Translations under genes and position numbers: made by a program
Assembly: GCF_025999835.1 (NCBI RefSeq)
Contig: NZ_AP025628.1
Coordinates: 1,860,001-1,924,000, forward strand
Direction: 5' to 3'
Origin: Caldinitratiruptor microaerophilus
GTDB lineage: Bacteria; Bacillota; Sulfobacillia; Symbiobacteriales; ZC4RG38
Length of the DNA stretch: 64,000 nucleotides
The notes under the pieces: generated by a model
What the model saw: the letters and a program-made list of their open reading frames with translations, nothing else
Told to the model about the DNA's origin: nothing
Database searches by the model: none
Shown here: piece after piece, positions 15,604 through 42,654 of the stretch
Layout of the letters: every line of letters starts with the position of its first letter
Numbering within the stretch: the stretch's first letter is position 1

Positions 15604-15628
15604 AGACCAGTCCTCTGCACGCGAACGC

Positions 15629-16154: not shown

Positions 16155-16203
16155 GTGCACTTCAGGAACCACTACGCTCTTTCTAGCGGTTCCTGTACTG
16201 CAC
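16155..16203. repeat. 49-nt palindromic element, copy B
   Basis: Starts GTGCACTTCAGGAACC, identical over 16 bases to copy A, and ends GGTTCCTGTACTGCAC. The loop half differs from copy A but a complementary CTA/TAG pair near the centre is kept, as expected if structure rather than sequence is conserved. Confidence 0.75.
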
Positions 16204-16326
16204 ATCGACGCAATTTCTATCCAGATCCAGCAATAAATGGTACATACAGGCGGCGGGGGAGGATGACGGCCATGGAATTCGGCCTGTGGTGGACTGTCCC
16301 GGTGCCCGTGGCCCTCGTTCGGCAGG

Positions 16327-16611: not shown

Positions 16612-16670
16612 GGGCGGCCTGGCAGGTCCGGGGCGGATCGGCAGGGGCAGGGCCATGCGCCGGTAGGGGT

Positions 16671-17312: not shown

Positions 17313-17320
17313 CGCCCGGG

Positions 17321-25197: not shown

Positions 25198-25225
25198 AGC
25201 AGACCTCTCCCGTTGGCACCAGCTA

Positions 25226-25651: not shown

Positions 25652-25681
25652 GGGTGCTGGCCCCTTTCGGTGCGAGTCGTC

Positions 25682-28026: not shown

Positions 28027-29082
28027 TCACCGTCCGGGCCTGTTGCCGGATTCGGCCCGGGGGCTCGAAGTCGATGATCGATTCGAGTCTCCGATTTCGA
28101 CATACGCTTGCCACATCCCTTCAGGGACCTGAGCCGCCGCGGCATCCGGAATCACCTGGGTGCCGCTGTACCCCTCGACCCCCGCCAGCGCCTCGTCCAG
28201 CGCGGCGACGACGGCGCGCTCGCCACCCGCCCGCACGAAGGCGATCGCCCCTTCCACCTTGGCCCGCATGCTCCCGTCGGCGAAGTGCCCTTCCCGGAGG
28301 TACGCTTCGAGCTCCGACGCCGTCACCCGGTCCAGCGGCTGCTGCTCCGCCGTGCCGTAGCGCAGGTAGACGCGGGGGACGTCGGTGAGGATGGCGAGGA
28401 GGTCGGCGCCCAGCTCCGTCGCCAGCCGCTGGGCGGTCAGGTCCTTGTCGATCACCGCCTCCACCCCCCGGAGCCCGTCCGGCCCCTCGGCCACCGGCAC
28501 TCCGCCCCCGCCCGCCGCAATGACCACCACGCCAAGGCCGACCAGCGCCCGGATGGCGTCGAGCTCGACCACGCGCCGGGGGGCGGGCGAGGGCACCACC
28601 CGCCGCCAGCCCCGGCCTGCGTCCTCGCGCATCACCCACCCTTTGGCCTGCATGAGCGCTCGGGCCTCGTGTTCCGCGTAGAAGGGTCCGACGGGTTTCG
28701 TGGGATTCCGGAAGGCCGGGTCGTGCGGATCGACGACGACCTGCGTCACGACGGTCACCACCGGGCGTGGCACACCGTGAGCCTGGAGCGCCACCCCGAG
28801 CTCCCGCTGCAGCAGGTACCCGATCTGGCCCTGGGACTGTGCCCCGCACACGTCCAGAGGCATGGCGGGAACCCGGTCCCGGGCCGCTTCGTTCTGGATC
28901 AGGATGTTGCCCACCTGAGGGCCGTTGCCGTGAGTCACCACCACCCGGTGGCCCCTTTCCACCACCCGGGCGATCTGGCGGCACGCCGTGCGGACGTTCT
29001 CGGCCTGCTCCTCCGCCGTCCCCGTCTGCCCATGCCGCAGGATGGCGTTGCCCCCAAGCGCGATGACGACCGTCTTCCCCAT
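28027..29082 (-). CDS. Carbamate kinase 1
   Basis: Transfers phosphate from carbamoyl phosphate to ADP, leaving carbamate that decays to ammonia and CO2. The full family signature is present: [58 protein letters not shown] and [14 protein letters not shown]. After the usual C-terminal end (GTQVIP) there are about 38 extra residues that I do not recognise; total 351. ATG 29082 has GGTGAGG upstream. It immediately follows the allH homologue, consistent with disposal of carbamoyl phosphate made by oxamate carbamoyltransferase. This copy keeps all expected residues, unlike carbamate kinase 2 (31978). Confidence 0.93.
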
Positions 29083-29087
29083 CGCCC

Positions 29088-29959
29088 TCACCTTTCGACA
29101 CCACGTCCAGGGCAAGCAGGACGCCCAGAGCCCAGTCGGAGCCCGAGGTCGCTCCGTGGCGGAGGACAGAGGCGAGCGCCTCCGCCCGGCCTTCTGCGGC
29201 TCCGCCCAGCAGGGCGTCCACGAGCCGCACGCCGTCCGCCGCCGCCACCCCGCGGGCGGCCCAGCGGAGGAAGTGCGCGGACAGCGCCGTCGTCCGGCGG
29301 CGCTCGAGGGCTTCCTCGATCGCCCGCCGCAGGACGGCGGCGGCCGGGTGACCGCTGCGCCCCAGGGCGAACACGAGCCCCGCCAGGAAATCGTCTCCGC
29401 TCGGGGTGAGCCCGGGTCCCAGCCCCACCAGGGCCTCGACGGCGCGCGCCAGCCCGGCCGGCGCCGCTGTACCCGCGGTTCCCTGAAGGGCCGTGCGGAG
29501 GGCCTCCACCCGCGCCGCCGCCGCGCTCGCCAGCCTTCCCTCCCACCGCGTCCTGCAGCAGTCCCCCAGCCCCCACGGACGGCCCGCCGCCGGGAGGGAA
29601 GCGGCCAGCCAGGCCGCCGCCTCCCGCAGCTGCGCCTCAGAGGCACAGGCGGGCGGCGGCGGCGGCGCCCAGTCGAGGGCCTGCCCCCACGCCACGCACG
29701 CGCCCTCGGGACCGACGAGAACGCCGCCCTCGCACCGGACGGTGTCGCCGGGCTCCCACCCGGGGACGGGCGGCGATCCGGTGTCGGCGAGGACGACGAG
29801 CCCTGGTCCGTCACCGATCTCCGGCGCGACGAGGCCGACCAGCTCGTCGCCGAACCGGAGGTTGACCGCCCGGCGGTGAGCACTGAGAACGGTTCCCGCA
29901 CGGCCGGAGGCCAGAACTGCCCGCACCGGGGCGTGGAGCGTCGCTGCTTGCCACCGCAT
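29088..29959 (-). CDS. allH: DUF2877 protein, probable oxamate carbamoyltransferase subunit AllH, apparently frameshifted at its 3' end
   Basis: From 29959 the frame encodes a DUF2877 (E. coli YlbF/AllH) protein: GTVLSAHRRAVNLRFGDELVGL, then VGLGPGLTPSGDDFLAGLVFALG, the family hallmark, then TALSAHFLRWAARG and HGATSGSDWALGVLLALDVV. Homology ends near residue 290, where a stop would be expected. Instead the frame stays open to 28121, overlapping carbamate kinase 1 in another frame. A -1 shift at TCGAAAGGTGAG would reach TGA at 29088, six bases before the kinase ATG. I give the end there, so the length is not a multiple of three. In E. coli AllF, AllG and AllH together form oxamate carbamoyltransferase. 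Confidence 0.75.
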
Positions 29960-30012
29960 CGTATCCCCATGGTAGCGGACGGAACCCGCGCGAATCGTCG
30001 TGGAACCATCAC

Positions 30013-30037
30013 AAAAGCGGGGCCCGCCCAGCCCCGC
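30013..30037 (-). terminator. Rho-independent terminator after pucR
   Basis: On the minus strand GCGGGGC, seven-base loop, GCCCCGC, then TTTTG. It lies about 40 bases past the pucR stop and separates it from allH. Confidence 0.75.
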
Positions 30038-30074
30038 CGGTTGTCAGGTTTCGTGCGCGCCGCCGCCCCTCCGT

Positions 30075-31754
30075 CTAGGCCAGGGAGCCCACCGCAGGCG
30101 ACGGAACGAGCCCACGCAGGCGCGCCGCGTGCAAGGCTAGCTGGAGGTGGAGCCGGCTCTCCGCGTCCTCCAGGTCCATGCCCGTGATCTGCTGGATGCG
30201 CTCCAGGCGGTACAGCACCGTGTTGTAGTGGGCGTAGAGCTGTGCGGCAACGCGGCGGACGTTGCCCTTGTTGGCGAAGAAGGCTTCCAGCGTGCGCACG
30301 AGATCCGTGCGGTGGGCCAGGTCGTACTCGACCAGACGGCGGATGCTGGACAGGAAACGCTCCATCTCGTCCGACGGGCCGATCATGTCCAGGATCGGGA
30401 ACACGCCCAGGTCGTCGACGTGCGCAACCCGGCCAGGCCCCCACACCCGCTCGGCGATCGCCGCCGCCCGCCGCGCCTCGAGGAAGCTGCGCCTCACCCC
30501 TTCCACGCCCCGCTGGACGCTCCCGACCCCGATGCTCAGTCGGAGCAACCGGCCGAACGGCCGCACTTGCTCCAGGAGGTGCCGGGCGAACCCCATGGCC
30601 TCCGCCCGGCCATCCCCCCTGCCACTCGGCCGCCTGAGGACGACCGTGTGGAGCTCGACCTCCCCGGTCAGCGCCTCCGCGCCGGCAAGCCGGCACACTG
30701 CCTCGTAGAGCTGGTCTGCCGCGGCCTGTGCCGCCGCGGCCTCCTGGGGGGAATGGACGGAGGCGGGCTCCGCCTTGACGGCCACGACGTAGTACGGCGC
30801 GGCGAGGTCCAGGCCGTAGAGCCGCGCCCGCTGCATCAGCGCGGCCTCGGACCGTATCTCGGGGGCGAAGAGCGCCGCGAGGAACTCGCTGCGGTACCGG
30901 CGCTCCACCTCCAGCAGGGTCCGCCGGTTGGTGAACTCCAGGGCCACCACCGTGGCCGCCGAGTCCAGCGTGATCAGGTCAAGTTCGCCCACCGGCCGGC
31001 CGGCTTCCCAGACCACGATTTCTCCGTGCGCTCGGCTCCCGACCACCACCGGGGTGACCACGCGGCTGAAGGTCCGACCCTGCCAGCGCACGACCTCGTG
31101 CCGGTGCAGCGTCTCGCCCGCAGACAGGAGGTACTCGCTCTGGCTGGCCTCCCGGGCGCTCTGGCGCTCCAGTTCCTCCGCCTCGTCCCCCGCCAGGGTC
31201 CCGGGCGCCCAGGCCAGGACCTGCCGGGCGGCGTCGAGGATGGCCACCGGGTTCCCGAGCAGCCCCGAGAGGCTGAGAGCCAGCGACTCCAGCCCGCGCC
31301 CCTCGAGAACCGCCTTCATCATCTCCCGGTGCGTCTCGTGCTGCCGGCTGAGCACGGTGGCCTGGCGGCTCACGATCTTGGCGAAGATCGGCTGCATCAC
31401 CTCCGAGAAGGGAACGTCGGGCGGCAGGACGATCAGCGGGAGGGCGAGCTCGGTGGCACTCAGGAGCATCTCGGAGGGGAGTTCCCGCACGTAGGACTGC
31501 TTCACCGCCAGCGCGGCGGCGCCGAGGCGGTTCACCTGGCCCACCAGGTCGATCTGCGCGGCGCGGTCTTCGCGGATGGCGTACAGCGCCGTGATGAGGA
31601 AGTCCCCTGCCTTGACGAAGCGCAGGGCATCGGGCGCTTCCAGCACCCCCACCGAGCGGACCGCGCGCTCCATCCCGCCGGTCCCCGCCAGCACCCGGGC
31701 CCCCGGAATGAGTTCCACCGCCTCCCGAACCGTGATGGCTCCCAGGTGCTCCAC
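30075..31754 (-). CDS. PucR-family transcriptional regulator
   Basis: 559 residues with the three-part PucR layout: an N-terminal purine-catabolism regulator domain (TVREAVELIPGARVLAGTGGMERAVRSVGVLEAPD, then FLITALYAI), a central GGDEF-like region, and the C-terminal PucR helix-turn-helix LVRTLEAFFANKGNVRRVAAQLYAHYNTVLYRLERIQQITGMDLED. In Bacillus PucR activates purine/allantoin genes. It sits inside the oxamate carbamoyltransferase cluster and has a perfect inverted repeat 33 bases upstream of its GTG start, so it probably regulates itself and the neighbours. Confidence 0.95.
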   Translation of the reverse strand: MEHLGAITVREAVELIPGARVLAGTGGMERAVRSVGVLEAPDALRFVKAGDFLITALYAIREDRAAQIDLVGQVNRLGAAALAVKQSYVRELPSEMLLSATELALPLIVLPPDVPFSEVMQPIFAKIVSRQATVLSRQHETHREMMKAVLEGRGLESLALSLSGLLGNPVAILDAARQVLAWAPGTLAGDEAEELERQSAREASQSEYLLSAGETLHRHEVVRWQGRTFSRVVTPVVVGSRAHGEIVVWEAGRPVGELDLITLDSAATVVALEFTNRRTLLEVERRYRSEFLAALFAPEIRSEAALMQRARLYGLDLAAPYYVVAVKAEPASVHSPQEAAAAQAAADQLYEAVCRLAGAEALTGEVELHTVVLRRPSGRGDGRAEAMGFARHLLEQVRPFGRLLRLSIGVGSVQRGVEGVRRSFLEARRAAAIAERVWGPGRVAHVDDLGVFPILDMIGPSDEMERFLSSIRRLVEYDLAHRTDLVRTLEAFFANKGNVRRVAAQLYAHYNTVLYRLERIQQITGMDLEDAESRLHLQLALHAARLRGLVPSPAVGSLA

Positions 31755-31786
31755 GGCGGTCCCTCCCTTGTGGAAACATCACATCT

Positions 31787-31812
31787 CGGAAGTTTCGGCG
31801 CGTAAACTTCCG
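31787..31812. promoter_or_regulatory. Inverted repeat, probable PucR operator
   Basis: Perfect palindrome with nine-base arms CGGAAGTTT and AAACTTCCG and an eight-base spacer, two helical turns across, in the leader between pucR and the carbamate kinase 2 gene. Its size suits a dimeric helix-turn-helix regulator. A similar half-site, GAACTTCC, occurs upstream of the Mo-hydroxylase operon at 42520. Confidence 0.65.
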
Positions 31813-31977
31813 TTACATGGTCCATGCAAGTCTTAGGGTGGGTTTCGCCGCGCTCACCCCAGGCTCCTGTCACCCTGTCAGCTTGTGAACTTTTGCCTTA
31901 TCCCCGCGCCTCCCGGTCGTAAGGTCGCATCAGCGCCCGAGGTGCCGCCGCGCCCCGGTAGGCACGGACGGCCAGCA

Positions 31978-32928
31978 TCACGGCTCGATGACCGTACCTC
32001 CTTCGCCGGCGAGGGCCCTGCCCAGCGTGGAGAGGTCCGTGATGAGGGCAGGACGCTGCCGGCGCTCGGCGAAGCGGGCCGCCGCCTCCACCTTGACGCC
32101 GATGCTGCCGTACGGTAGATCCCCGCTCGCCACGAGGCCGCGGGCCTCGGCGACGGTGAGCCGCCTCAGGCCGGTCTCGCCATCCTGCCCCCAGCGCGCG
32201 ATCACATGGGGGACGCCCGTAAGGAAGACGAGCATGTCCGCCGCGATCTCGACGGCCAGGAGGCTGGCGGCCAGGTCCTTCTCCACCACGGCCTCCACCC
32301 CCCGGACGCGGCCGTCGGGTGCGCGCACCACGGGGACTCCCCCACCTCCCGCGGCGATGACCACACAACCGGCATCCAGAAGGGACTTCACCTGCGGGCT
32401 CTCACACACGGTTCGGGGCTCCGGCGACGGCACCACGTGCCGCCACCCCCGCGCATCGCGCTGCAGCACGTACCCGCGCCGCGTCAGTTCGCTGGCCTTG
32501 GCGGCGGAGTAGACGGGGCCGACCACCTTGGTGGGGGCATGGAACGCCGGGTCCGCCGGATCCACCAGTACCCGGGTCAGGAGGCAGACGACGGGCCGCC
32601 GGATTCCCGCCCGGTAGAGGGCAGTGTCGAGGGTGTTCTGGATCAGGAGGCCGATCTGCCCCTGGCTCTCGGCGCCGCAGACATCGAGCGGCATGGGCGG
32701 GGCGAGAGCCCGGGCCTCCTCGTTCTGGAGCACGATGTTCCCCACCTGGGGCCCGTTCCCGTGGGTGACCACGAGCCGGTGACCGGCAGCCACGAGCTGC
32801 GCCAGCTGCCGTCCGGTGGCTTCCAGGTTCTCCGCCTGCTCCGCGGCGCTCCCGCGCTGCCCCGGCCGCAGGATCGTGCCGCTCCCGAGCGTGACCACGA
32901 TCGTCATTCCGCCCTGAATGGCTGCCAT
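31978..32928 (-). CDS. Carbamate kinase 2, divergent N-terminal loop
   Basis: 316-residue carbamate kinase paralogue. It keeps [40 protein letters not shown] and YGSIGVKVEAAARF, but the usual LGGNA phosphate loop at the N-terminus is replaced by VVTLGSGTILRPG. The change affects the nucleotide/phosphate site, so activity may be altered. It lies 31 bases after the allG (DUF1116) stop at the end of the long cox-permease-cyclase-allF-allG-kinase series. Possibly it is the native partner of this operon while carbamate kinase 1 serves allH, or it is a structural or regulatory paralogue. Confidence 0.9.
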   Translation of the reverse strand: MAAIQGGMTIVVTLGSGTILRPGQRGSAAEQAENLEATGRQLAQLVAAGHRLVVTHGNGPQVGNIVLQNEEARALAPPMPLDVCGAESQGQIGLLIQNTLDTALYRAGIRRPVVCLLTRVLVDPADPAFHAPTKVVGPVYSAAKASELTRRGYVLQRDARGWRHVVPSPEPRTVCESPQVKSLLDAGCVVIAAGGGGVPVVRAPDGRVRGVEAVVEKDLAASLLAVEIAADMLVFLTGVPHVIARWGQDGETGLRRLTVAEARGLVASGDLPYGSIGVKVEAAARFAERRQRPALITDLSTLGRALAGEGGTVIEP

Positions 32929-32959
32929 CGCTCCTCCCGGCTTGGCGAAGCGCTGCGGA

Positions 32960-34360
32960 TTACCCGTCGAAGGCGTCGGCGAGGGCCAGAAGGGCGTCGG
33001 CGAAGATGTTGGCGGGCGGATTCACGAGACCGGCTCCCACCTGCCCGACCCCGGGGTCCTTGTGCGCGATGCCGGTGTTGATGCTCGGCAGGATGCCGGT
33101 CTCGACGACGCGGCGGACGTCGATGCCTGTGGGCGTGCCGCGGAAGTTGAAGTACGGGATCTGGTAGTACCGGTTCTCCGCCAGCGTGATCTCGTACATC
33201 TTCCGGGTCAGCTCGATGGCCAGGTCCACGGTGCCGCCCACGAACTGGACGATGGCCGGCGCCGCCGCCATGGCGAACCCGCCGATTCCTGCGGTCTCGG
33301 TGATCACCGAGTCGCCGATGTCCGGGCTGGCGTCCGCCTCGGTGAAGCCGGGGAAGTAAAGGCCCCGGACCTTCTGAGCCGGGCCGGTGAACCACCGCCC
33401 GGGCAGCCCCGAGACCTGCAGCCCGAACTCGTAACCGTTGCGGGACATGCACGTGACCACGGTCGAGTCCCGGACGCCTCGCGCCGCGTCGAGGGTGGCC
33501 TTGGCGGCCGCCATGGAAAGGTTCACGAACCAGACCTCGTTGTGGCCGATGAAATCCAGCACCCGGGCTACCCGGTCGGGGCCCAGCGGCCCCCGAACGG
33601 CGTACGGGGCCACCTCCCGCAAGAACAGCGATCCGGCGGCCTTGTTCCGGTTGTGGCACTCGTCGCCCATGTGCAGCGCCTGGGCGATCAGGCTCCGGAG
33701 GTCGAGGCCCCCCATCTCCCGGACCGCGTGCCGCAGGGTCTCGGCCACGTCCGTGTTGATCCAGCGGAGCTTGTCGAGCACGTCCGGAGCGTAGGCCCCC
33801 ATCCGGAGAACCCTGCCGTACCCTTCGTTCAGATTGGCGAACGCCCGGTTGCCGTAGGCCTTGTTCTCGACCACGAACACCGCGCTGGAGTACGACGTGA
33901 CCCCGGCCATCGGTCCCACGGCGCCGACGTCGTTGTTGGAGCGGAAGGTGATCGCCCCCGAGGCAGCCAGCTCGGCTGCCTCCTCCGGCGTCCGGGCGAG
34001 CCCCTCGAGCATCAGGGCCCCCATGACGGCCCCCCGCTGGGGGCCTGCCATCGTCTCCCAGCGGTTGGGCGGCCCCGAGTGGAGGATGGTGGTCCGGGTC
34101 ATCCCGGGGATGACCTCGCCGGCCGTGGCAACGTCGACCCACACCGGGTGACCGCTGAGAATGATCTCGAGGGCCCTGGCGTTCGCAGCCTCCACCCTGG
34201 GGTGGCTGAGCTTCTCCAGCGCGGCGACGAGGCGCGGGTCGCCGCCCGCCGGCGGCTGCCAGTCCAGCTGGGTGACGGCGATCCCCTGAGCCCTCAGGCT
34301 GTCGGCGAAGTGGGCGGTTCCCACGTTCAGGACGTGCAGGGGCTGACGCAAGAGGCTCAT
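32960..34360 (-). CDS. allG: DUF1116 protein, probable oxamate carbamoyltransferase subunit AllG
   Basis: 466 residues starting SLLRQPLHVLNVGTAHFADSLRAQGIAVTQLDWQPPAGG, followed by NARALEIILSGHPVWVDV, GMTRTTILHSGPP, FRSNNDVGAVGPMAGV, and NRYYQIPYFNFRGTPTGIDVRRVVETGILPSINTGIAHKDPGVGQVGAG, the characteristic C-terminus of DUF1116/YlbE. In E. coli this protein (AllG) works with FdrA and YlbF to convert oxalurate and phosphate to oxamate and carbamoyl phosphate. ATG 34360 has GGAGG 11 bases upstream; the frame further up is shadow of fdrA. Eight bases separate it from fdrA. Confidence 0.92.
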   Translation of the reverse strand: MSLLRQPLHVLNVGTAHFADSLRAQGIAVTQLDWQPPAGGDPRLVAALEKLSHPRVEAANARALEIILSGHPVWVDVATAGEVIPGMTRTTILHSGPPNRWETMAGPQRGAVMGALMLEGLARTPEEAAELAASGAITFRSNNDVGAVGPMAGVTSYSSAVFVVENKAYGNRAFANLNEGYGRVLRMGAYAPDVLDKLRWINTDVAETLRHAVREMGGLDLRSLIAQALHMGDECHNRNKAAGSLFLREVAPYAVRGPLGPDRVARVLDFIGHNEVWFVNLSMAAAKATLDAARGVRDSTVVTCMSRNGYEFGLQVSGLPGRWFTGPAQKVRGLYFPGFTEADASPDIGDSVITETAGIGGFAMAAAPAIVQFVGGTVDLAIELTRKMYEITLAENRYYQIPYFNFRGTPTGIDVRRVVETGILPSINTGIAHKDPGVGQVGAGLVNPPANIFADALLALADAFDG

Positions 34361-34368
34361 CGTGGACC

Positions 34369-35862
34369 CTACCTCCCCTCCAGGCTGGCGGCAACGGTCA
34401 GGGCGGCGAGGCGCGCCGTGGGCAGGACCACCGCGCCCGCCGCACGGAGCCGCTCCTCCTGTTCCGACCGCCGCTGGGGGTCGGCTTCCGTCGCCGTGAC
34501 CGACGCCACCACCGCGACGCCCCCGGCGACGGCCGCTGCGATCTCGTCCGCCAGTGCCCCCGCCGGGTCGGGGTGTGCCCCGTGGCCCGCGACGATGTCG
34601 AGGAGGATGACGGCCGTCTCGGGGTCGGCGGCCTCGGCCCGGAGCCGCTGCCTGCGGACGGTGGGATCGATCATGGGGTGTGCGCGTCCCACCGTGAAGG
34701 TATCGTCTCCCAGGTCCAGGAGCGTGTGGCCGCGGCTGCGGTCCACGCCGCCCCGGCGCTCGGCCACCGGGTGCACGTTGCAGAGGACCGGCCCCACCCG
34801 CGCTTCCAGCACGGCGAGCGCCTGGTCGCACAGCGAACCGCCGGAGAAGAGGCCGCGGACGTAACGCCGGCCGGGGCGGACCGGGAGGGCGGGCAGCGGC
34901 CCACCGTAGCCGATCTGCGCCTCCAGTTCGGCGACCGGCCGCCCGGTGGCGAGGGAGACCGCCTGCACGGCGGCCTCGTCGATGGACAGGGCCCCCTCGC
35001 CGCCCAGGAAGCAGGTCACGACCGGCTTGGAGATCGCCCCTATGTCGGCGGCGAGCCGCTGTGCCACGGCCGGAGCCGGCGGCTTGGAGAGGACCACGAT
35101 GACCGCCGTCTCCGGATCCTCCGCCAGGAGGCGCAGGCCGTCCCGCATCATGAGACCGCCCACCTCGGCGGTCAGGTCCCGGCCCCCCGTGCCGAGGAGG
35201 TGGGAGATGCCGCTTCCCAGCCGGTCGATGAGGACGCTGAGTTCCTGGGAGCCCGTCCCGGACGCCGCCACGATGCCGATCGGACCCCGCCGCACGGCGT
35301 TGGCGAAGCCGAGCCCCACCCCACCCACGATCGCCGTCCCGCAGTCCGGGCCCATGAGGAGCAGGCCCTTCTCGTGGGCCAGGCGCTTGAGGGCCACCTC
35401 GGTCTCGAGGGGGACATTGTCGCTGTACAGCATCACGTGGAGGCCGTGTTCCAGCGCCTTGCGGGCCTCCCGCCCGGCGTAGGCGCCCGGCACCGAGATG
35501 AAGGCGAGGTTCGCGCCCGGGGCCTGGCTGAGCGCGGCGGTCAGCGTCCGCGGCAGAGCGCCCCCCGACCCACGATCGCCCCCTCCGGAGCCCTTCCGGA
35601 GGAGGACCTCCGCCTGCTCCAGCGCGGCCGCCAGCGCCTCGTCGGTCTCCGCGTCGACGGCGATGACCAGGTCCGTTTCCCTGGCTGCCCGGGCAGAGTC
35701 CGTGAGGAGCCCGACCTGCTCCAGGATCTCCTTGTTCATCTCCGTGGCCATGGCGACCACGGCCTCCCGCACGCCCGGGAGTTCCATGAGCTTCTGGGAG
35801 ATGGACATGAGGGCGACCGAGTCGTGGTACGTGTTCGGCTTGACGACGGTCTGGACCGGCAC
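34369..35862 (-). CDS. allF: FdrA-family protein, probable oxamate carbamoyltransferase subunit AllF
   Basis: 497-residue relative of succinyl-CoA synthetase alpha. It begins VVKPNTYHDSVALMSISQKLMELPGVREAVVAMATEMNKEIL as FdrA proteins do; the acyl-CoA-synthetase-like core is GPDCGTAIVGGVGLGFAN, GPIGIVAASGTGSQELSVLIDRLGSGISHLLGTGGRD, LGGEG, and the C-terminal part resembles the ligase half. E. coli FdrA (AllF) is required for oxamate carbamoyltransferase. GTG 35862 has AAAGGA upstream and yields a family-like start; the open frame to 36372 is shadow of the cyclase gene. Confidence 0.92.
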   Translation of the reverse strand: MPVQTVVKPNTYHDSVALMSISQKLMELPGVREAVVAMATEMNKEILEQVGLLTDSARAARETDLVIAVDAETDEALAAALEQAEVLLRKGSGGGDRGSGGALPRTLTAALSQAPGANLAFISVPGAYAGREARKALEHGLHVMLYSDNVPLETEVALKRLAHEKGLLLMGPDCGTAIVGGVGLGFANAVRRGPIGIVAASGTGSQELSVLIDRLGSGISHLLGTGGRDLTAEVGGLMMRDGLRLLAEDPETAVIVVLSKPPAPAVAQRLAADIGAISKPVVTCFLGGEGALSIDEAAVQAVSLATGRPVAELEAQIGYGGPLPALPVRPGRRYVRGLFSGGSLCDQALAVLEARVGPVLCNVHPVAERRGGVDRSRGHTLLDLGDDTFTVGRAHPMIDPTVRRQRLRAEAADPETAVILLDIVAGHGAHPDPAGALADEIAAAVAGGVAVVASVTATEADPQRRSEQEERLRAAGAVVLPTARLAALTVAASLEGR

Positions 35863-35951
35863 GGCGTCACATCCTTTCGAGCACCCCGGAGTCGCCGGAG
35901 CGAGAAGCGGAGGGGGGTGGCCCCTCCGCTCCCCCGGCTGAGACGGCCCGG

Positions 35952-36779
35952 CTACCTGGCGGGGACGAACGCCAGCATGCGGCACCACGCCGCCTCGCCG
36001 CCCCGGAAGCGGAACGGGAAGCAGCCCACCCACACCCGCTGGTCGAGGATCTCGTCGATCTCGCCGCCGATGTTCTCCACGTGGAACACGCCGTGCGGGA
36101 AGAGCTTGGTGTGGGTCATCTGGTACCATTCCTGGGGGAACACCTCGTCCAGGTCCTTGACGCCCAGGTGCTTGCGCACGGTCTCCGCCACGTCCGGCCG
36201 CACCTGCCGGACCACGGTGTCGAACGGATGGTCGGTGGACATGGCGTCGATGGCGATCCAGCGGATCCCGCGGTCGAGCACCCACTGGACGAACTCCTTC
36301 TTCGGCCCGGGCTGGTTCAGGAAGTAGCGGGGGAGGTCCGGCTTGGCCTCGCCGCACTTCGTCGGGCACCACTGCTCGTTGTAGTAGCGGTGGAAGCCGG
36401 TGTGGATGAGGAGGATGTCACCCTTCTCGATCCGGATGCCCGTCTTCTTCTCCCACGCCTCGAAGTGCTCGGGCCCGTACAGGTCGTAGTCGCCGACGCC
36501 CATCTTTTCGAGGTCGACGACGACGGCCGGACCGAACAGATGCTGGACCGGGATGCCCGCCACGTCAGGACCGGGGTCGTAGAAGTGCCAGGGGCTGTCC
36601 AGGTGCGTGGAGAGGTGGATCGTCGACGAGATGTGCTGCGCGTTCACCCCCTCGAAGGCGATCCGCTTGACCCACTTGACGGTGGGACCCTCGTACCGGG
36701 CGAAGGCCGGCGAGTTGGAGCTGAAATCCTGGGACAGGTCGAGCACGCGGACGTTGCTGAGATCGAGGAACTGGTTCAT
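35952..36779 (-). CDS. Cyclase-family metal-dependent hydrolase (PF04199; KynB/isatin-hydrolase-like)
   Basis: 275 residues. The metal-binding motif HxSTHxDSPWHF appears as IHLSTHLDSPWHFYDPG, followed by LFGPAVVVDLEKMG, IEKGDILLIHTGF, and AIDAMSTDHPF, where further His/Asp ligands are expected. Members hydrolyse cyclic amides or N-formyl groups (kynurenine formamidase, isatin hydrolase). In this cluster, between the NCS2 permease and fdrA, a ring-opening of a cyclic ureide to oxalurate is an attractive but untested role. Gap to fdrA is 89 bases. Confidence 0.88.
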   Translation of the reverse strand: MNQFLDLSNVRVLDLSQDFSSNSPAFARYEGPTVKWVKRIAFEGVNAQHISSTIHLSTHLDSPWHFYDPGPDVAGIPVQHLFGPAVVVDLEKMGVGDYDLYGPEHFEAWEKKTGIRIEKGDILLIHTGFHRYYNEQWCPTKCGEAKPDLPRYFLNQPGPKKEFVQWVLDRGIRWIAIDAMSTDHPFDTVVRQVRPDVAETVRKHLGVKDLDEVFPQEWYQMTHTKLFPHGVFHVENIGGEIDEILDQRVWVGCFPFRFRGGEAAWCRMLAFVPAR

Positions 36780-36813
36780 GCGCCCTTCCTCCCTTACCTA
36801 CCGGCAACGGCTG

Positions 36814-38148
36814 TCAGTCGTGCGCTTCCACGGCCGGCTCGGCGTGCGCCCCGGGCCGGGCACCGGCAGACCGGCGGTCGAATGCGAGGAAGACGAGGTT
36901 CAGGAGGATGCCGACCACGGCGGCGGTGGCAATCGACGGCAGCTTCATTCCCCAGATCGGGATGTTGCCGCCCTCCATGGCAGCGCCGCCGAGCCCGATC
37001 ACGAGGATGATCGCCCCGATGGCGAGCTGGCGCGGGTCGAAGAGGTCCACCTTCTCCTCCTGCATGAGCGCCACGCCCTGCATGGCGATGACCCCGAAGA
37101 GGTAGATCGCCAGGCCGCCGGTGACGAAGATCGGCAGGGTGGAGATGAGGGCCGAGAGCTTGGCCACGAACCCGAGCGCCATGGCGATGACCCCTGCGGC
37201 TGCCAGCACGGGGGTAGAGTAGTTCCGGGTGATGGCCATGAGGCTGTTGTTCTCGCCGTAGTTGGTCCCCGACGACGCCCCGAAGAAGCCGTTGATCATG
37301 TCGGACAGCCCGTCCAGGACGAGGTTGAGCCCGATCAGCCGCTTGACCTCGAGCCGTGGCCGGCCCAGCTCGTCGGCCAGCTTGTCGATGTACAGGCTGA
37401 TCTGGTACAGGTGCGCCGTGCTCTCCGGGATGGTGGCGATGGCGATGGGCGCGATGGCCAGGACCGCCTGCCAGGCCCCGGGGGCCGTGAAGGCGGGGAA
37501 CTGGAACTTCGGCATGGCGAACAGGGGCGCCTCGAGCACGGGCTTGAAGTCGACCAGCCCGGCCGCCAGGGACACCAGGTACCCCACGGCCGCCCCCAGG
37601 AGCACGGGCAACATGCCGAGGAGCCCCTTGCCCCGCAGGTATACCGAGAACAGCACGGTGGCCACCAGCGTCAGGAGCGCGATCGTCCAGTTCTGCGACG
37701 CCATGTCGAGAGCCGCCTTGGCCAGGGCCACCCCGATCACGATCGCCACCGAGCCCGTGATCGCCGGCGGCAGCACGCGGTCGAGGGCCTGCTTGCCCAC
37801 CCTCTGGATGATCAGTCCGGCCAGGATGTTCACCAGCCCGGTGGCCACGATGCCCACCTGCGCGACGCGGTGGCCGCCCCAGGACGCGCCGACCACGGCG
37901 ACCACGGGGGCGATGTAGGCGAAGCTGCCTCCGTAGTACAGCGGAATCCGGCCGCCCGACCCCACGACAGCGACGATGGTGGCCAGACCCGACGTGAACA
38001 GGGTGACGCCGACGTCGAACTTGGTGAGGATCGCCACCAGCACGGTGGCAGGGAACATGGTGAGCACGTGCTGGAATCCAAGGCTGACAAGCGCCCCGAA
38101 TGGGGGTCGATCCTGCGGCAGGTATCCGATCACCCGGCCCGCTGTCAT
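36814..38148 (-). CDS. NCS2 nucleobase permease (UraA/RutG-like)
   Basis: 444-residue polytopic permease of the xanthine/uracil family: PFGALVSLGFQHVLTMFPATVLVAI at the N-terminus, two half-TM regions (GGSFAYIAPVVAVV and GASSGTNYGENNSLMAITRNYSTPV), and LPIFVTGGLAIYLFGVIAMQG. The TNYGEN...MAITR stretch is closer to uracil/pyrimidine carriers (UraA, RutG) than to xanthine carriers (PbuX, XanQ), so the substrate may be a pyrimidine or other small ring. ATG shares one base with the coxL-type stop (TAATG), so it is co-translated with the Mo-hydroxylase. Confidence 0.93.
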   Translation of the reverse strand: MTAGRVIGYLPQDRPPFGALVSLGFQHVLTMFPATVLVAILTKFDVGVTLFTSGLATIVAVVGSGGRIPLYYGGSFAYIAPVVAVVGASWGGHRVAQVGIVATGLVNILAGLIIQRVGKQALDRVLPPAITGSVAIVIGVALAKAALDMASQNWTIALLTLVATVLFSVYLRGKGLLGMLPVLLGAAVGYLVSLAAGLVDFKPVLEAPLFAMPKFQFPAFTAPGAWQAVLAIAPIAIATIPESTAHLYQISLYIDKLADELGRPRLEVKRLIGLNLVLDGLSDMINGFFGASSGTNYGENNSLMAITRNYSTPVLAAAGVIAMALGFVAKLSALISTLPIFVTGGLAIYLFGVIAMQGVALMQEEKVDLFDPRQLAIGAIILVIGLGGAAMEGGNIPIWGMKLPSIATAAVVGILLNLVFLAFDRRSAGARPGAHAEPAVEAHD

Positions 38149-40526
38149 TAAGTTTGCCTCCCTTCCCTCGGTGATGTCTCGTTTCCGACCTCTTCTCCGG
38201 CTGCAGGCGGCGTCCCACCTCCTTTCCGGATCATGTCCCAGAGCCGCGCCGGGCTCAGGGGCATCTCGGTCACCCGCACCCCGAAGGGACGCAGCGCGTC
38301 CTCCAGGGCCTGGGCGAAGACCGCCGCCACGGGGATGACCCCGGCTTCGCCGGCCCCCTTGATCCCGAGCGGGTTGAGCGGAGAAGGAGTCTCGATGTGG
38401 TCGGTCTCGATGTGGGGCACCTCGCTGGCAGTGGGCAGGAGGTAGTCCATGAAGGTCGAGGTCAGCAGCTGGGCGTTCTCGTCGAAGACCAGCTTCTCGT
38501 AGAACACGCCGCCGATCCCCTGCGCCACCCCCCCGTGGATCTGCCCCTCGACGATCATCGGGTTGATCACGGTTCCGCAGTCGTGCACCACGCAGTACCG
38601 CAGGACCCGGATCTGCGCCGTCTCCGGGTCGACCTCCACCACGGCCGCGTGGCCGCCGCTCGGGAAGGTCGACTGCTGGGGGCTGAAGTAGCGGGTCGCC
38701 TCCAGCCCCGGCTCGCCGAACTGCAACGTGCCCCGCAGCGGGTTGGCCCGGAAGGCCACCTCGCCGAGGGAGAGGGAGCGAGCCGGCGCCCCCTTCACCC
38801 GGGCCCGGCCATCGGCCAGCTCGATGTCGTCCGGGCTGCATTCGAGGAGGCGGGCGGCGACCTGGCGGGCCTTGTCGGCGACGGCCTGCGCGGCCAGGTG
38901 GGCGGCGTTGCCCACCACCACGGCCGCCCGGGACGCGAAGGTGCCGATCCCCCACCCCATGGCTGCCGTGTCCCCGGTCACCACGTGGACGTCCTCCACC
39001 CGCACGCCGAGCTGGTCGGCCACCACCTGCGCGAACGAGGTGAAGTGCCCCTGTCCCTGGGTCCCCACGCCCGTGGCGACGAGCACCTTCCCGGAGGGCT
39101 CCACCTGGACCCGTACCCCTTCGTAGGGGCCCGGGCCGGAGCCCTCCACGTAGAACGCCATCCCGACCCCTACGTACCGGCCCTGGCGGCGGGCCTCCTC
39201 CTGCTCCCGCCGGACGCGGTCCAGGTCGAGGAGGCGCACCAGCGTGTCGGCCAGGAGCGGGTAATTGCCGCTGTCGTAGCGCGTCGGGGCCCAGTCCTGG
39301 TAGATCAGGCCGGTGTCCCACGGGAACTCGTCGGGCTGGATGAAGTTCTTGCGCCGCACCGCCAGCGGGTCCATCCCGAGCGCCTCGGCGATGCGGTCCA
39401 TCATCCGCTCCATGACGAACACCCCATGCGGGCGCCCGGCCCCGCGGTAGGGGGTGACCGTCGGCTTGTTGGTGTACACCACCGTGCCTTCCACCCGGTA
39501 GTTGCGCAGGCGGTACGGACCCGGCAGCGTGGTAAGGGTGATGATCGGCACCTGGATCCCGTACGGCGTGTAGGCGCCGCTGTCGTGGACGAACCGCGTG
39601 TACAGGCCGAGCAGCGTCCCGTCCCGGCTGACCGCGACCTCCACCTCGTGGACCTGCTCCCGCTCCTGGGTGGTGGCCACGAAGTTCTCGCGCCGGTCCT
39701 CGATCCACTTGACCGGCCGCCGGAGCTTCATGGCCGCGAACAGCACGAGGACCTCCTCGGGGTAGAACATCATGACCTTCGGCCCGAAGCCGCCGCCGAC
39801 GTCCGGGGCGATGACCCGCAGCTTCATCTGCGGGAGCCCGAACCAGCCGGCCAGCCCGTTCCGCAACGCGACCGGCGCCTGCGTGCTCACGTACATCGTG
39901 TAACCGTCGCCTTCTGGGATCGCCACGATGCCGCGGGTCTCCATCGAGGCCGCCGTTCCCCGGTCGATGCGGAGGCGCTCGGTCAGCACGAGGTCCGCCC
40001 GGGCCCGGGCGGCGTCGTAGTCGCCCACGTTGCGGACGATCCGGGCGGCGACGTTGTCGGGCATGTCGTCGTGGACGCGGGGCGCGGCCGGGTCCAGCGC
40101 CTGCAACAGGTCGTGCACGGCCGGCAGGGGCTCGTAGTCGACCTCCACCGCTTCGGCGGCGTCCTCGGCCAGGTAACGGTCCTGCGCCACCACGAAGGCC
40201 ACCGCCTCGCCCAGGTGGCGCACCTTGTCCTTCACGAGGGCGGACTGAGTCCGGCCGTGAACGAGGTCGTCGTGGGGGATGAGGAGCGGGAGCGGCCCGT
40301 TCAGCGGCCCGAGGTCGTCCGCCATGTACACGGCCACCACGCCGGGCATCTGCCGGGCGCGCGCCACGTCGATCCGCCGGATGCGGGCGTGCGCGTACGG
40401 GCTGCGGACCACGGCGGCGTGGAGCATGTCCGGCCGCGAGATGTCGTCCACGTACACGCCGCGCCCGGTGAGCAGACGCAGGTCCTCGTTGCGCCGGATG
40501 GGCTGCCCGAAGTAGCGCGTGCTCAC
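38148..40526 (-). CDS. Molybdenum hydroxylase large subunit (xanthine dehydrogenase/CoxL family, form II)
   Basis: 792-residue molybdopterin-binding catalytic chain. N-terminal RRNEDLRLLTGRGVYVDDI, then APDVGGGFGPK, TPYRGAGRPHGVFVMER, GTQGQGHFTSFAQV and the catalytic Glu in GIKGAGEAGVIP. The loop reads YRGAGR, not the CSFR of genuine form I CO dehydrogenase, so the substrate is an organic molecule (purine, pyrimidine, N-heterocycle or aldehyde). It overlaps coxS by four bases and leads straight into a nucleobase permease and the oxamate carbamoyltransferase genes. Confidence 0.94.
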   Translation of the reverse strand: MSTRYFGQPIRRNEDLRLLTGRGVYVDDISRPDMLHAAVVRSPYAHARIRRIDVARARQMPGVVAVYMADDLGPLNGPLPLLIPHDDLVHGRTQSALVKDKVRHLGEAVAFVVAQDRYLAEDAAEAVEVDYEPLPAVHDLLQALDPAAPRVHDDMPDNVAARIVRNVGDYDAARARADLVLTERLRIDRGTAASMETRGIVAIPEGDGYTMYVSTQAPVALRNGLAGWFGLPQMKLRVIAPDVGGGFGPKVMMFYPEEVLVLFAAMKLRRPVKWIEDRRENFVATTQEREQVHEVEVAVSRDGTLLGLYTRFVHDSGAYTPYGIQVPIITLTTLPGPYRLRNYRVEGTVVYTNKPTVTPYRGAGRPHGVFVMERMMDRIAEALGMDPLAVRRKNFIQPDEFPWDTGLIYQDWAPTRYDSGNYPLLADTLVRLLDLDRVRREQEEARRQGRYVGVGMAFYVEGSGPGPYEGVRVQVEPSGKVLVATGVGTQGQGHFTSFAQVVADQLGVRVEDVHVVTGDTAAMGWGIGTFASRAAVVVGNAAHLAAQAVADKARQVAARLLECSPDDIELADGRARVKGAPARSLSLGEVAFRANPLRGTLQFGEPGLEATRYFSPQQSTFPSGGHAAVVEVDPETAQIRVLRYCVVHDCGTVINPMIVEGQIHGGVAQGIGGVFYEKLVFDENAQLLTSTFMDYLLPTASEVPHIETDHIETPSPLNPLGIKGAGEAGVIPVAAVFAQALEDALRPFGVRVTEMPLSPARLWDMIRKGGGTPPAAGEEVGNETSPREGRQT

Positions 40527-41014
40527 TTGCGCTCCCCTCCCTCCGGCATCCGCGACGCGGCGTCACGTACCGCCGCGACGATGTTCTGGTACCCCGTGCA
40601 CCGGCAGAGGTTGCCGCTGAGGAGTTCCCGGATCTCCTCCTCGCTCTCCGGAAGCGGATGCTCGGCCAGGTAGCCGGCGACGGTCACGACGAAGCCAGGG
40701 GTGCAGAACCCGCACTGAAGCGCATGGTGCTCCCGGAACGCCTCCTGGACGGGGTGCAGCCGGTCGCCGTCGGCAAGCCCCTCGACGGTCGTCACCGAGT
40801 GGCCGTCCACCTGCACGGCGAACAGGAGGCAGGAGCGCACCGGCTTGCCGTCCAGGAGCACCGTGCACGCCCCGCACACGCCGTGCTCGCAACCCACGTG
40901 GGTCCCGGTGAGCCCGAGGTGGTGGCGCAGGAAGTCGCTCAGGAGAAGGCGCGGCTCCACCTCGCGCTCGTACTCCTGGCCGTTCACCCGCACCCGGATC
41001 GTCCGCGTGCTCAC
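40523..41014 (-). CDS. Molybdenum hydroxylase [2Fe-2S] small subunit (CoxS-like)
   Basis: 163 residues with two iron-sulfur cluster sites: the plant-ferredoxin type GCEHGVCGACTVLLDG...SC near residues 41-63 and the helical site CGFCTPGF ... NLCRCTGYQNI near 101-145. It shuttles electrons from Mo to FAD. ATGA overlaps on both sides (with coxL- and coxM-type genes) show a tightly coupled operon. Confidence 0.96.
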   Translation of the reverse strand: MSTRTIRVRVNGQEYEREVEPRLLLSDFLRHHLGLTGTHVGCEHGVCGACTVLLDGKPVRSCLLFAVQVDGHSVTTVEGLADGDRLHPVQEAFREHHALQCGFCTPGFVVTVAGYLAEHPLPESEEEIRELLSGNLCRCTGYQNIVAAVRDAASRMPEGGERK

Positions 41015-41892
41015 GCCTCCGCCCCCCTCTGCGCCTGGCGAACGGCAAGACGGAGGGCACGGCGGGTCAGGACGTCCGACAGGTGCCGGCGGTACTCCGC
41101 CGTGGCGTGGATGTCCGACTCCGGCTCCACGGCCTCCCGCACTTTCCGGCCGGCCTCCGCGAAGACCTTCTCACCGGGCCGCTCGCCCTGCAGCACCGCC
41201 TCCGCCCCCCGCGCCCGGATCGGGGTCGTCCCCACCCCGGTCAGGGCGATCCGCGCCTCCCGGACGGCCCCGTCTCCGCCCATGTCGACGACGCAGGCCA
41301 CGCCCACGATGGCGAAGTCGCCACTGCGGCGCGCCATCTCCACGAAGGCGTACCCGGCCGTCTCCGGCAGCCGGGGCAGCCGCACCTCCACGAGGATTTC
41401 GCCGGGCTCGATGCACGTGGTGTAATACATGACGAAGAAGTCGTCCGGGCCGACCTCCCGCACGCCCCCGGTGCCGGCGATGCGGAACCGGCCGTCCAGG
41501 CAGGCCCAGACCGCCGGCAGCTCGGCGGCCGGATCGGCGTGAGCCAGGCTCCCGCCGACCGTCCCCCGGTTGCGGATCTGGACGTGCCCCACGTGCCGAA
41601 CGGCCTCCCGCAGGAGCGGCTGCCAGTCGGCCACCAAGGGCGAGTGCTCGACCTCGGCGTGGCGGGTCATGGCGCCGATGGCGAGCATGTCGCCATCCGA
41701 CCGGATGTACGCCAGCTCCGGGATGCGGTTCAGGTCCACCAGCAGCCGGGGCGCAGTCAGCCGCATGTTGAGCGCCGGCACGAGGCTCTGCCCGCCCGCC
41801 AGCACCTTCGCGTCCTCGCCGTGCTGCCGCAGCAGGGCCAGCGCCTCCGGGAGGGTGCGAGGGTCCTCGTAGTCAAACCGCGGGGGCTTCAT
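41011..41892 (-). CDS. Molybdenum hydroxylase FAD-binding medium subunit (CoxM-like)
   Basis: 293 residues. FAD-contact motifs AGGQSLVPALNMRL (about residue 32) and NRGTVGGSLAHADPAAELPA (about residue 108) are both present, followed by the CO-dehydrogenase flavoprotein C-terminal domain. Electrons leave the complex through this subunit. Located between the CoxG-like gene (21 bases upstream) and coxS. Confidence 0.95.
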   Translation of the reverse strand: MKPPRFDYEDPRTLPEALALLRQHGEDAKVLAGGQSLVPALNMRLTAPRLLVDLNRIPELAYIRSDGDMLAIGAMTRHAEVEHSPLVADWQPLLREAVRHVGHVQIRNRGTVGGSLAHADPAAELPAVWACLDGRFRIAGTGGVREVGPDDFFVMYYTTCIEPGEILVEVRLPRLPETAGYAFVEMARRSGDFAIVGVACVVDMGGDGAVREARIALTGVGTTPIRARGAEAVLQGERPGEKVFAEAGRKVREAVEPESDIHATAEYRRHLSDVLTRRALRLAVRQAQRGAEA

Positions 41893-41913
41893 CCGCCCTT
41901 CCTCCCTCCTTCC

Positions 41914-42399
41914 TCACCCCACCGCGCCGGTACCGGATGTCCCACCGCCCTGACCGGCGCGAGCCCGGGCTTCCCGCTCGAGGCGGGCGAAGAAGTCCCC
42001 GACGAGGTGGCGCGCCGCTCCGCCGAGGACCCGCTGCCCCACCATGGCCACGGGGCCGCCCACCTGGATCTGCCATTCGTAGTGCAGCGCCGTCCCGCCG
42101 TCCGACGGCTGCAGGCGGATCGTGCCGCTCACCTGGACGAAGCCGCCCGCCCCGTTGCCCCCGATCTCCAGACACATCCACTCCGGCCGCTTCCGGTCGG
42201 CGACCCGGAGCGTCCCCCGGTAGGTTCCCTTGATGCCCGCCAGCCCCACTCTGAGGTCTGCCCGGTAGAGATCCTCCGACTCGCGCACCAGCCGCTCACA
42301 GCCCGGGAGCGCGCGGGCGAGGGCGGAAGCGTCGTTCAGCAGCTCCCAGATCTCCTCGGGGGAGGCAGGAAGGGTGATGTCGCCCGACAACTCGTACAC
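41914..42399 (-). CDS. CoxG/SRPBCC-family protein
   Basis: 161 residues: YELSGDITLPASPEEIWELLNDASALARALPGCERL then VADRKRPEWMCLEIGGNGAGGFVQVSGTIRLQPSDGGTALHYEW, the classical carbon monoxide dehydrogenase subunit G (CoxG) pattern. CoxG proteins help dock Mo-hydroxylases at the membrane. It is the first gene of the Mo-hydroxylase operon and ends in a disordered Gly-rich tail. Confidence 0.93.
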   Translation of the reverse strand: MYELSGDITLPASPEEIWELLNDASALARALPGCERLVRESEDLYRADLRVGLAGIKGTYRGTLRVADRKRPEWMCLEIGGNGAGGFVQVSGTIRLQPSDGGTALHYEWQIQVGGPVAMVGQRVLGGAARHLVGDFFARLEREARARAGQGGGTSGTGAVG

Positions 42400-42654
42400 T
42401 TCTGGTTATCCCCCTGCTTCGAGCGCTGCGGTCGTCGTGGGCAGCCGCAGTGGCCGGCCTCCCGTGCGCCGTGCGATACGCCACGGGGATTCGAGCACGT
42501 CCGAGACGATGCCTTTGGTGAACTTCCCTAAATTCGTTCGCCACGGCCCGGAAATCGGTTGGAGAGTTCTGTGGGCTCGCGCGAAGGGCGCGGCCCCGTC
42601 CCCACGGAAAGGACGGTGCCGGCTCACAACCTGGCGAGAGGCAGGGGGATTGAG
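42400..42654. promoter_or_regulatory. Divergent promoter region between the Mo-hydroxylase operon and the SDR-CaiB genes
   Basis: About 255 bases between two genes that diverge, so promoters for both directions must be here. GGTGAAC (42517-42523) and GTTCGCC (42536-42542) form an inverted repeat with one mismatch, and the included GAACTTCC matches seven of eight bases of the arm of the palindrome in front of pucR. AT-rich CCCTAAATTCG lies in its centre. I could not assign -35/-10 pairs with confidence. Confidence 0.5.

Follow-up and report, generated by a model that had tools for sequence, protein, structure and literature searches.

The window, a 64,000-nucleotide stretch of the genome of the hot-spring bacterium Caldinitratiruptor microaerophilus, carries a gene module on its minus strand between positions 28027 and 42399. 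All genes named there by a first-pass annotation were found, and profile matches confirmed their identity, strand and order: CoxG-M-S-L (form II), NCS2 permease, PF04199 cyclase (Cyc), AllF, AllG, carbamate kinase, PucR, AllH and a second carbamate kinase. The extent given in that annotation held for the listed genes but was incomplete, since a family III CoA-transferase on the plus strand also belongs to the cluster. Membership of an SDR-family dehydrogenase is doubtful. The features are as follows.

41914–42399, minus strand: CoxG-like protein (PF06240, Pfam 88.9 bits), probably a Mo-hydroxylase assembly or membrane-anchoring protein
41011–41892, minus strand: CoxM, FAD subunit of the Mo hydroxylase (PF00941, PF03450)
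40523–41014, minus strand: CoxS, [2Fe-2S] subunit (PF01799, PF00111)
38148–40526, minus strand: CoxL form II, Mo subunit (PYRGAGR, PF20256, PF02738)
36814–38148, minus strand: NCS2 permease, uracil (UraA) type
35952–36779, minus strand: Cyc, metal-dependent cyclase (PF04199)
34369–35862, minus strand: AllF (FdrA), acylurea transcarbamylase subunit (NCBIfam PRK06091, 456 bits, cut-off 433)
32960–34360, minus strand: AllG (DUF1116) subunit (PF06545, 293.8 bits, contig positions 1893308–1893952)
31978–32907, minus strand: carbamate kinase 1, divergent (TIGR00746, 336 bits, below the cut-off of 358)
30075–31754, minus strand: PucR-type regulator (PF07905, PF13556)
29088–29959, minus strand: AllH (formerly DUF2877) subunit (PF11392, 90.6 bits)
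28027–29082, minus strand: carbamate kinase 2, canonical (TIGR00746, 423.7 bits, above cut-off)
42559–43350, plus strand: SDR-family dehydrogenase, divergent from CoxG (PF00106/PF13561)
43486–44673, plus strand: CoA-transferase family III (PF02515, 490.6 bits)
23237–27352, directly downstream of the cluster: methylmalonyl-CoA mutase (large and small subunits), epimerase and carboxyltransferase

The reading frames of CoxM/CoxS, CoxS/CoxL and CoxL/NCS2 overlap or are tightly packed, as expected of one operon. The same gene set recurs in many genomes, in other phyla and with differing gene orders, which indicates that the module is more than a chance grouping. AllF, AllG and AllH are encoded together with carbamate kinase, so that an E. 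coli AllFGHK-type gene set is present; the divergent carbamate kinase 1 carries SGT in its first loop where GGN is expected (alignment to 1e19). The CoxMSL proteins share the subunit make-up of aerobic CO dehydrogenase. However, the active-site motif of CoxL is the form II motif PYRGAGR and not the AYXCSFR (form I) of CO dehydrogenase; therefore, CO dehydrogenase activity is not expected and this identity was ruled out. PDB matches of CoxL include quinoline 2-oxidoreductase and 6-hydroxypseudooxynicotine dehydrogenase. When 22 Cyc-linked CoxL proteins were compared with the three paralogues of the genome, 21 matched the window CoxL best; all 23 Cyc-linked CoA-transferases likewise matched the window CoA-transferase best among seven paralogues.

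The permease matched UraA (3qe7) with E=1e-60, compared to only 3e-5 for uric acid-xanthine permease; its scores against the uracil permease models PRK10720 (289 bits) and TIGR00801 (250 bits) were both under cut-off. Of the eight residues that we take, from the UraA structure, to bind uracil, seven are identical (A31, F73, E241, H245, Y288, G289 and E290), and Y342 is replaced by F. Judged by its sequence, the permease is thus of the uracil type with the UraA binding residues conserved. Cyc displays both the fold and the HxxTHxDxPxH metal-site motif of the PF04199/isatin hydrolase family, with conserved residues H55, T58, H59, D61, H65, H184 and E235. The top fold matches of its AF2 model (pLDDT 92.7) were isatin hydrolases (4m8d, 5nmp, 5nna), which bears out the isatin-hydrolase-like character ascribed to it before. 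These enzymes hydrolytically open a cyclic amide, and we propose a reaction of the same kind for Cyc; however, identity is only about 20%, and the genomic context and the proposed substrate differ.

The first-pass annotation had reported no uricase, allantoinase or ureidoglycolate dehydrogenase, and had regarded co-regulated allantoin genes elsewhere as evidence against its proposal. When the search was extended genome-wide, neither uricase nor allantoinase was found, the sole full-length AllB-like match being a dihydroorotase, while two PF02615 dehydrogenases, both unlinked to the cluster, did not reach the AllD cut-off. An allantoin route from genes elsewhere was thus rejected for uricase and allantoinase.

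Eighty loci with close Cyc relatives, spread over Bacillota, Chloroflexi, Actinomycetota, archaea and further groups, were inspected, along with a wider set of 112 Cyc loci. A Mo hydroxylase or AllFG gene was in view at 72 of the 80. In the wider set, CoA-transferase III occurred at 29 loci and MmdA/OAD-beta or a malonyl-CoA synthase-like ligase at 20. Cytosine deaminase-like genes were seen at 13 Cyc loci (one of these, when tested, scored above its NCBIfam cut-off). The best family of a Cyc-adjacent ligase was malonyl-CoA synthase (PRK07514), below cut-off. Carboxydothermus islandicus displayed a nearly full set in a single run: PucR-AllF-AllG-CoA-transferase-Cyc-CK-CN_hydrolase-MmdA-BCCP-OADb-CoxM-CoxS-CoxL-NCS2. 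Sixty Bacillota AllG loci, 32 with Cyc and 28 without, were then compared. Mo hydroxylase was present at 25/32 versus 3/28 and CN_hydrolase at 15/32 versus 0/28, whereas an AllB homologue (0/32 versus 5/28) and the AtzD/barbiturase family (0/32 versus 7/28) were confined to loci without Cyc; the Fisher tests on these associations ignore relatedness, and an independent-pairs test (Cyc versus Mo hydroxylase, CN_hydrolase, AtzD and CoA-transferase) had only two pairs and no power. The AtzD/barbiturase family behaves as if it filled the same slot as Cyc. Taken with the uracil-type permease, the recurrent Cyc partners (cytosine deaminase, CN-hydrolase, CoA-transferase III, malonyl-CoA synthase-like ligase and MmdA/biotin/OAD-beta decarboxylase) indicate pyrimidine and malonate rather than oxalurate.

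In our judgment, the module probably constitutes an energy-conserving oxidative pyrimidine degradation pathway leading from uracil (or thymine) via barbiturate and ureidomalonate to malonamate and carbamoyl phosphate. Gene content, conservation, orthology, predicted fold and permease binding residues were computed here, and from these we infer the substrates and reactions of the Mo hydroxylase, the cyclase, AllFGH and the CoA-transferase. Uracil (or thymine) would be imported by the UraA-type permease, and form II CoxMSL, a proposed uracil/thymine C6-hydroxylase, would convert uracil to barbiturate. Cyc, the proposed ring-opening hydrolase of barbiturate, would release ureidomalonate (3-oxo-3-ureidopropanoate), which AllFGH would split with phosphate into malonamate and carbamoyl phosphate, and carbamate kinase would turn the latter into ATP, CO2 and NH3. 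An amidase would convert malonamate to malonate. The CoA-transferase, which we suggest converts malonate (or methylmalonate) to its CoA ester, would then provide malonyl-CoA for decarboxylation to acetyl-CoA, a step that a Na+-pumping biotin decarboxylase may perform in several relatives. In the window, no CN_hydrolase, cytosine deaminase or decarboxylase with OAD-beta adjoins the module; one aliphatic amidase and six PF01425 amidases are encoded elsewhere in the genome. Besides this, several findings count against the reading: in three Chloroflexi loci, an AtzD-family ring opener stands beside Cyc; near Cyc in the closest relative (G399), neither a CoA-transferase nor a mutase gene was found; Cyc is accompanied by two different Mo-hydroxylase subfamilies; and the nearest characterized relatives of the Cyc-linked CoA-transferases include YfdE, an acetyl-CoA:oxalate CoA-transferase (42 to 44% identity). 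The energy logic put forward in the first-pass annotation, in which a ring is oxidized by the Mo enzyme and opened by the cyclase to an acylurea that yields ATP through AllFGH and carbamate kinase without allantoin genes, is supported. Of its aside that the ring might be a purine or pyrimidine, the pyrimidine is favored, with barbiturate to ureidomalonate fitting better than parabanate to oxalurate.

The window copy might be specialized for thymine, so that 5-methylbarbiturate would give methylmalonate, methylmalonyl-CoA and, via the adjacent mutase and epimerase, succinyl-CoA; this would be a special case of the pyrimidine pathway, and the two are not mutually exclusive. Such a specialization is suggested by the methylmalonyl-CoA mutase genes directly downstream and by mutase genes near Cyc in two archaeal loci (L129 and L150), but we consider it unlikely: a TetR gene stands between the cluster and the mutase genes, mutase, epimerase and carboxyltransferase are also the usual propionyl-CoA gene set, and no mutase gene lies near Cyc in same-class relatives, including G399. 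The idea that the mutase is a constant component of the module was rejected.

It is rather improbable that the pyrimidine-to-malonate route is right with its roles shifted, Cyc acting downstream (e.g., on malonamate or ureidomalonate) and the ring being opened otherwise. Linear amides are also cleaved by cyclase-fold enzymes such as kynurenine formamidase, and three Chloroflexi loci (L117, L118 and L120) have an AtzD-family ring opener beside Cyc, two of them with an amidase as well; there, Cyc may be redundant or perform another step. The specificity residues of the L118 enzyme are mixed, partly Bar-like (Asn195, Lys325) and partly cyanuric-like (Gly345, Gly346). However, the top folds for Cyc are ring-opening enzymes, Cyc loci often include a CN_hydrolase of their own that would handle the amide step, and Cyc and the AtzD family never occurred together in the Bacillota AllFGH loci surveyed. 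The window cluster holds no other ring opener, and AtzD/TrzD/Bar-family barbiturase (PF09663) was absent from the window genome and from four class relatives with the module (G399, G094, G055 and G008) in a search whose positive control worked in G113 and G013.

The first-pass annotation had favored a parabanate or hydantoin ring with oxalurate as the acylurea: the Mo enzyme would make parabanate, a five-membered dicarbonyl ureide, which Cyc would open to oxalurate for the same AllFGH reaction as in E. coli, giving oxamate and carbamoyl phosphate. Oxalurate and oxamate are indeed the substrates of E. coli AllFGH (PMC11326118). Isatin is likewise a five-membered 1,2-dicarbonyl ring, the likeness to YfdE would suit an oxalate branch, and CN_hydrolase could use oxamate. 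The uracil-type permease and the cytosine deaminase, malonyl-CoA synthase-like ligase and biotin decarboxylase partners nevertheless make this route quite improbable. In the AllG tree, the entries nearest to the window AllG, which sits on a long branch, were all Cyc-linked, and E. coli AllG fell on a separate branch. An oxalate branch was rejected after searches with the E. coli genes oxc, frc and yfdE: oxalyl-CoA decarboxylase is essentially absent near Cyc, with one weak (27%) match among the 112 loci. Parabanate is not known to have a biological source.

A cyanurate- or biuret-type route, with AllFGH phosphorolyzing carboxybiuret or biuret from an s-triazine, can hardly apply, since the three loci at which a Moorella-type cyanuric acid hydrolase adjoins AllG (L056, L058 and L067) lack Cyc and the AtzD family is missing from the window genome, even though AllFGHK is paired with biuret hydrolase in nitrifiers (PMC12625717).

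The proposed pyrimidine pathway resembles the E. coli allFGHK oxamic transcarbamylase and catabolic carbamate kinase (PMC11326118, PMC9843812) in its AllF, AllG, AllH and linked carbamate kinase and in how energy is drawn from an acylurea, first as carbamoyl phosphate and then as ATP. In contrast to that system, the window module lacks allantoin genes, is linked to a Mo hydroxylase, uracil-type permease, cyclase and CoA-transferase, has an AllG outside the E. coli branch and would act on ureidomalonate instead of oxalurate. AllFGHK without allantoin genes, tied to other ureide hydrolases, is also known from ammonia-oxidizing archaea and comammox bacteria; a cyclase, a Mo hydroxylase or malonyl-CoA genes are not described in the passages of that report that were consulted (PMC12625717). 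The known oxidative pathway of Rhodococcus/Nocardia (barbiturase Bar, ureidomalonase) runs from uracil via barbiturate and ureidomalonate to malonate and urea; the literature treats it as uncommon and associates it with the AtzD/Bar family (PMC3758960). The proposed intermediates are shared, but the ring would be opened by a PF04199 enzyme, unrelated to PF09663; the acylurea would be phosphorolyzed, with recovery of ATP, where the known route hydrolyzes it to urea; and malonate would proceed to a CoA ester. Literature searches (barbiturase/ureidomalonate; uracil oxidation/malonyl-CoA), with subscription journals mostly outside their scope, returned no description of the module.

On balance, we lean toward a widespread, undescribed and energy-conserving pyrimidine pathway in bacteria and archaea, with PF04199 as a second, unrelated barbiturase family, AllFGH as ureidomalonate phosphorylase/transcarbamylase and malonate processed via malonyl-CoA. 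If so, the oxidative pyrimidine route would span many phyla, anaerobes and archaea included, and would keep energy as ATP, and probably also as a sodium gradient in some lineages, whereas urea is set free in the known route. Candidate genes for converting uracil to barbiturate could then be named, a conserved PF04199 subfamily would gain a function, and AllFGH, recently identified as a transcarbamylase, would gain a second substrate. As a transcarbamylase family, AllFGH would act on acylureas in general, and the adjoining ring opener would set which of them (oxalurate, ureidomalonate or carboxybiuret/biuret) is used. A conserved 242-residue neighbor of AllF matched only GNAT, at a subthreshold score.

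The window (G000:C1:1860001-1924000) belongs to a single-contig genome of 3,599,694 bp from Caldinitratiruptor microaerophilus JCM16183, a thermophilic, microaerophilic and nitrate-reducing relative of Symbiobacterium (PMC9933637). The genes, order and minus-strand orientation described by the first-pass annotation were all borne out: CoxG, CoxM, CoxS, CoxL, NCS2 permease, PF04199 cyclase (Cyc), AllF, AllG, carbamate kinase 1, PucR, AllH and carbamate kinase 2. The cluster extends past CoxG by two divergent plus-strand genes, listed here with the kinases.

42559-43350, plus strand: SDR gene, divergent from CoxG
43486-44673, plus strand: family III CoA-transferase, on the divergent side of CoxG
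31978-32907, minus strand: carbamate kinase 1, first loop SGT versus GGN of carbamate kinases, score below the arcC cut-off
28027-29082, minus strand: carbamate kinase 2, canonical

Carbamate kinase 1 may be altered or degenerate. The genome encodes seven family III CoA-transferases, and the copy at 43486-44673 was the top match among them for all 23 of the 23 Cyc-adjacent CoA-transferases of other organisms. Directly downstream of the module, behind a TetR gene, lie both methylmalonyl-CoA mutase subunits, an epimerase and an MmdA/PCCB-like carboxyltransferase (23237-27352); this adjacency is not kept in same-class relatives.

Cyc keeps the H55, T58, H59, D61, H65, H184, E235 pattern. The structures nearest to its AlphaFold2 model (mean pLDDT, 92.7) were isatin hydrolases (E about 4e-17), followed by other PF04199 enzymes and kynurenine formamidases. 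Since isatin hydrolase opens a cyclic amide, the natural inference is that Cyc is a ring opener. The permease matched UraA at E=1e-60 and the uric acid-xanthine permease at only 3e-5. Among the UraA binding residues, A31, F73, E241, H245, Y288, G289 and E290 are identical, while Y342 is replaced by Phe; the match and the kept residues favor import of uracil or thymine. CoxL carries the PYRGAGR motif, which agrees with its earlier assignment to form II, and CO dehydrogenase activity is therefore not expected of it. N-heterocycle hydroxylases are among its PDB relatives, and of the three paralogues in the genome it was the best match for 21 of 22 CoxL sequences linked to Cyc. At three other loci (L038, L045 and L046), the cluster is adjoined by Mo-hydroxylase maturation genes, among them XdhC and YqeC, of a type that accompanies selenium-dependent Mo hydroxylases.

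A single CH2 separates ureidomalonate from oxalurate, so AllFGH, a three-subunit acylurea transcarbamylase, would be predicted to convert ureidomalonate and phosphate to malonamate and carbamoyl phosphate. Known oxidative chemistry leads from uracil via barbiturate and ureidomalonate to malonate and urea (PMC3758960), and AllFGH interconverts oxalurate plus phosphate and oxamate plus carbamoyl phosphate (PMC11326118). Carbamate kinase would then yield ATP from carbamoyl phosphate, an amidase would free malonate, a CoA-transferase would form malonyl-CoA, and decarboxylation would give acetyl-CoA; we infer every substrate in this pathway. Candidates in the genome for the amide step are one aliphatic amidase (above cut-off) and six PF01425 amidases.

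Beyond the window's own genes, recurrent Cyc neighbors were a CN_hydrolase (amidase), a family III CoA-transferase (29/112 Cyc loci), MmdA with biotin carrier and Na+-decarboxylase beta subunit, an AMP-ligase (best family, malonyl-CoA synthase) and cytosine deaminase, one copy of which scored above the curated cut-off. Genes forming or decarboxylating malonyl-CoA occurred at 20 of the 112, and Carboxydothermus islandicus (L138) has nearly all partners in one run. These partners point to conversion of cytosine to uracil as the first part of the route and of malonate to acetyl-CoA as the last. Five haloarchaeal loci (L154, L155, L170, L176 and L179) combine Cyc with CoxMSL, NCS2 permease, and CoA-transferase and/or cytosine deaminase, with AllFGH absent from view; some also carry a hydantoinase-like gene and IclR regulators, which hints at a hydrolytic variant.

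The first-pass annotation had proposed oxalurate as the AllFGH substrate, an activity proven for the E. coli enzyme, and the CoA-transferases do resemble YfdE, an acetyl-CoA:oxalate CoA-transferase. However, the uracil-type permease, the cytosine deaminase and the malonyl-CoA genes argue against this route, as does the near absence of oxalyl-CoA decarboxylase (the E. coli query gave one weak match, at 27% identity, across the 112 loci). In addition, E. coli AllG falls with L060, a locus that contains AllC, and apart from Cyc-linked AllG. We therefore do not favor oxalurate and prefer the route through ureidomalonate. The reported lack of uricase and allantoinase held genome-wide: no uricase was found, the AllB-like protein is a dihydroorotase, and no hydantoinase-like protein matched better than that protein. 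Two PF02615 dehydrogenases are unlinked to the module and fall short of the cut-off for AllD, the ureidoglycolate dehydrogenase. Both the oxidative pyrimidine pathway and AllFGHK without allantoin genes are already known, the latter from nitrifiers (PMC12625717). We propose as new the combination of a PF04199 ring opener with phosphorolytic energy recovery feeding malonyl-CoA, which was not found in the literature searched.

Within the phylum, 60 of the 399 genomes have AllG; 32 of the 60 loci examined had Cyc and 28 did not. Mo hydroxylase accompanied 25/32 versus 3/28 and CN_hydrolase 15/32 versus 0/28, counts whose Fisher values ignore kinship; a test on phylogenetically independent pairs had just two pairs to compare. 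Taxonomic breadth is the stronger support for conservation: a GTDB genome scan with the Cyc alignment recovered loci in Chloroflexota, Armatimonadetes-labelled bacteria, Actinomycetota, Bacillota, Halanaerobiales, Verrucomicrobiota, Lentisphaerota, Nitrososphaerota and haloarchaea. At 72 of 80 Cyc loci, a gene for a Mo hydroxylase or for AllFG was in view, in varying order and strand. A protein of about 242 residues (L146:6181-6909; L061:12179-12907), weakly GNAT-like and with no Pfam family above cut-off, occurred in 14 of 80 Cyc loci (first cluster), and a similar one in five Bacillota loci.

Among the sampled AllFGH loci, a PF09663 (AtzD/TrzD/barbiturase) gene was found at 0/32 with Cyc versus 7/28 without (Fisher p=0.003, ignoring kinship). 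At three of these seven (L056, L058 and L067), the gene matches the cyanuric acid hydrolase of Moorella thermoacetica and directly adjoins AllG, as follows for one of them.

L058:8010-9113: Moorella-type cyanuric acid hydrolase gene, directly adjoining AllG

This arrangement suggests that the ring-opened product is phosphorolysed for ATP. PF09663 may thus be a non-homologous stand-in for Cyc. AllFGH is thus accompanied by two unrelated ring-opening amidases with acylurea products, carboxybiuret for cyanuric acid hydrolase and, as proposed, ureidomalonate for Cyc; the allantoin context of E. coli AllFGH is a third setting. PF09663 was absent from the window genome and from four relatives of the same class that have the module, while two positive controls scored. 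In three Chloroflexi loci (L117, L118 and L120), Cyc occurs alongside a PF09663 gene whose signature mixes barbiturase and cyanuric features, and Cyc may therefore play a different or redundant part in these loci. A PF01425-type amidase adjoins the AtzD-family gene in L118 (both genes, 14638-17552) and L120; L117 has the AtzD-family gene only. At loci L073, L078 and L082, AllG is present in tandem copies, together with a cytosine-deaminase-like gene and an AtzD-family gene whose ASAG motif is unusual.
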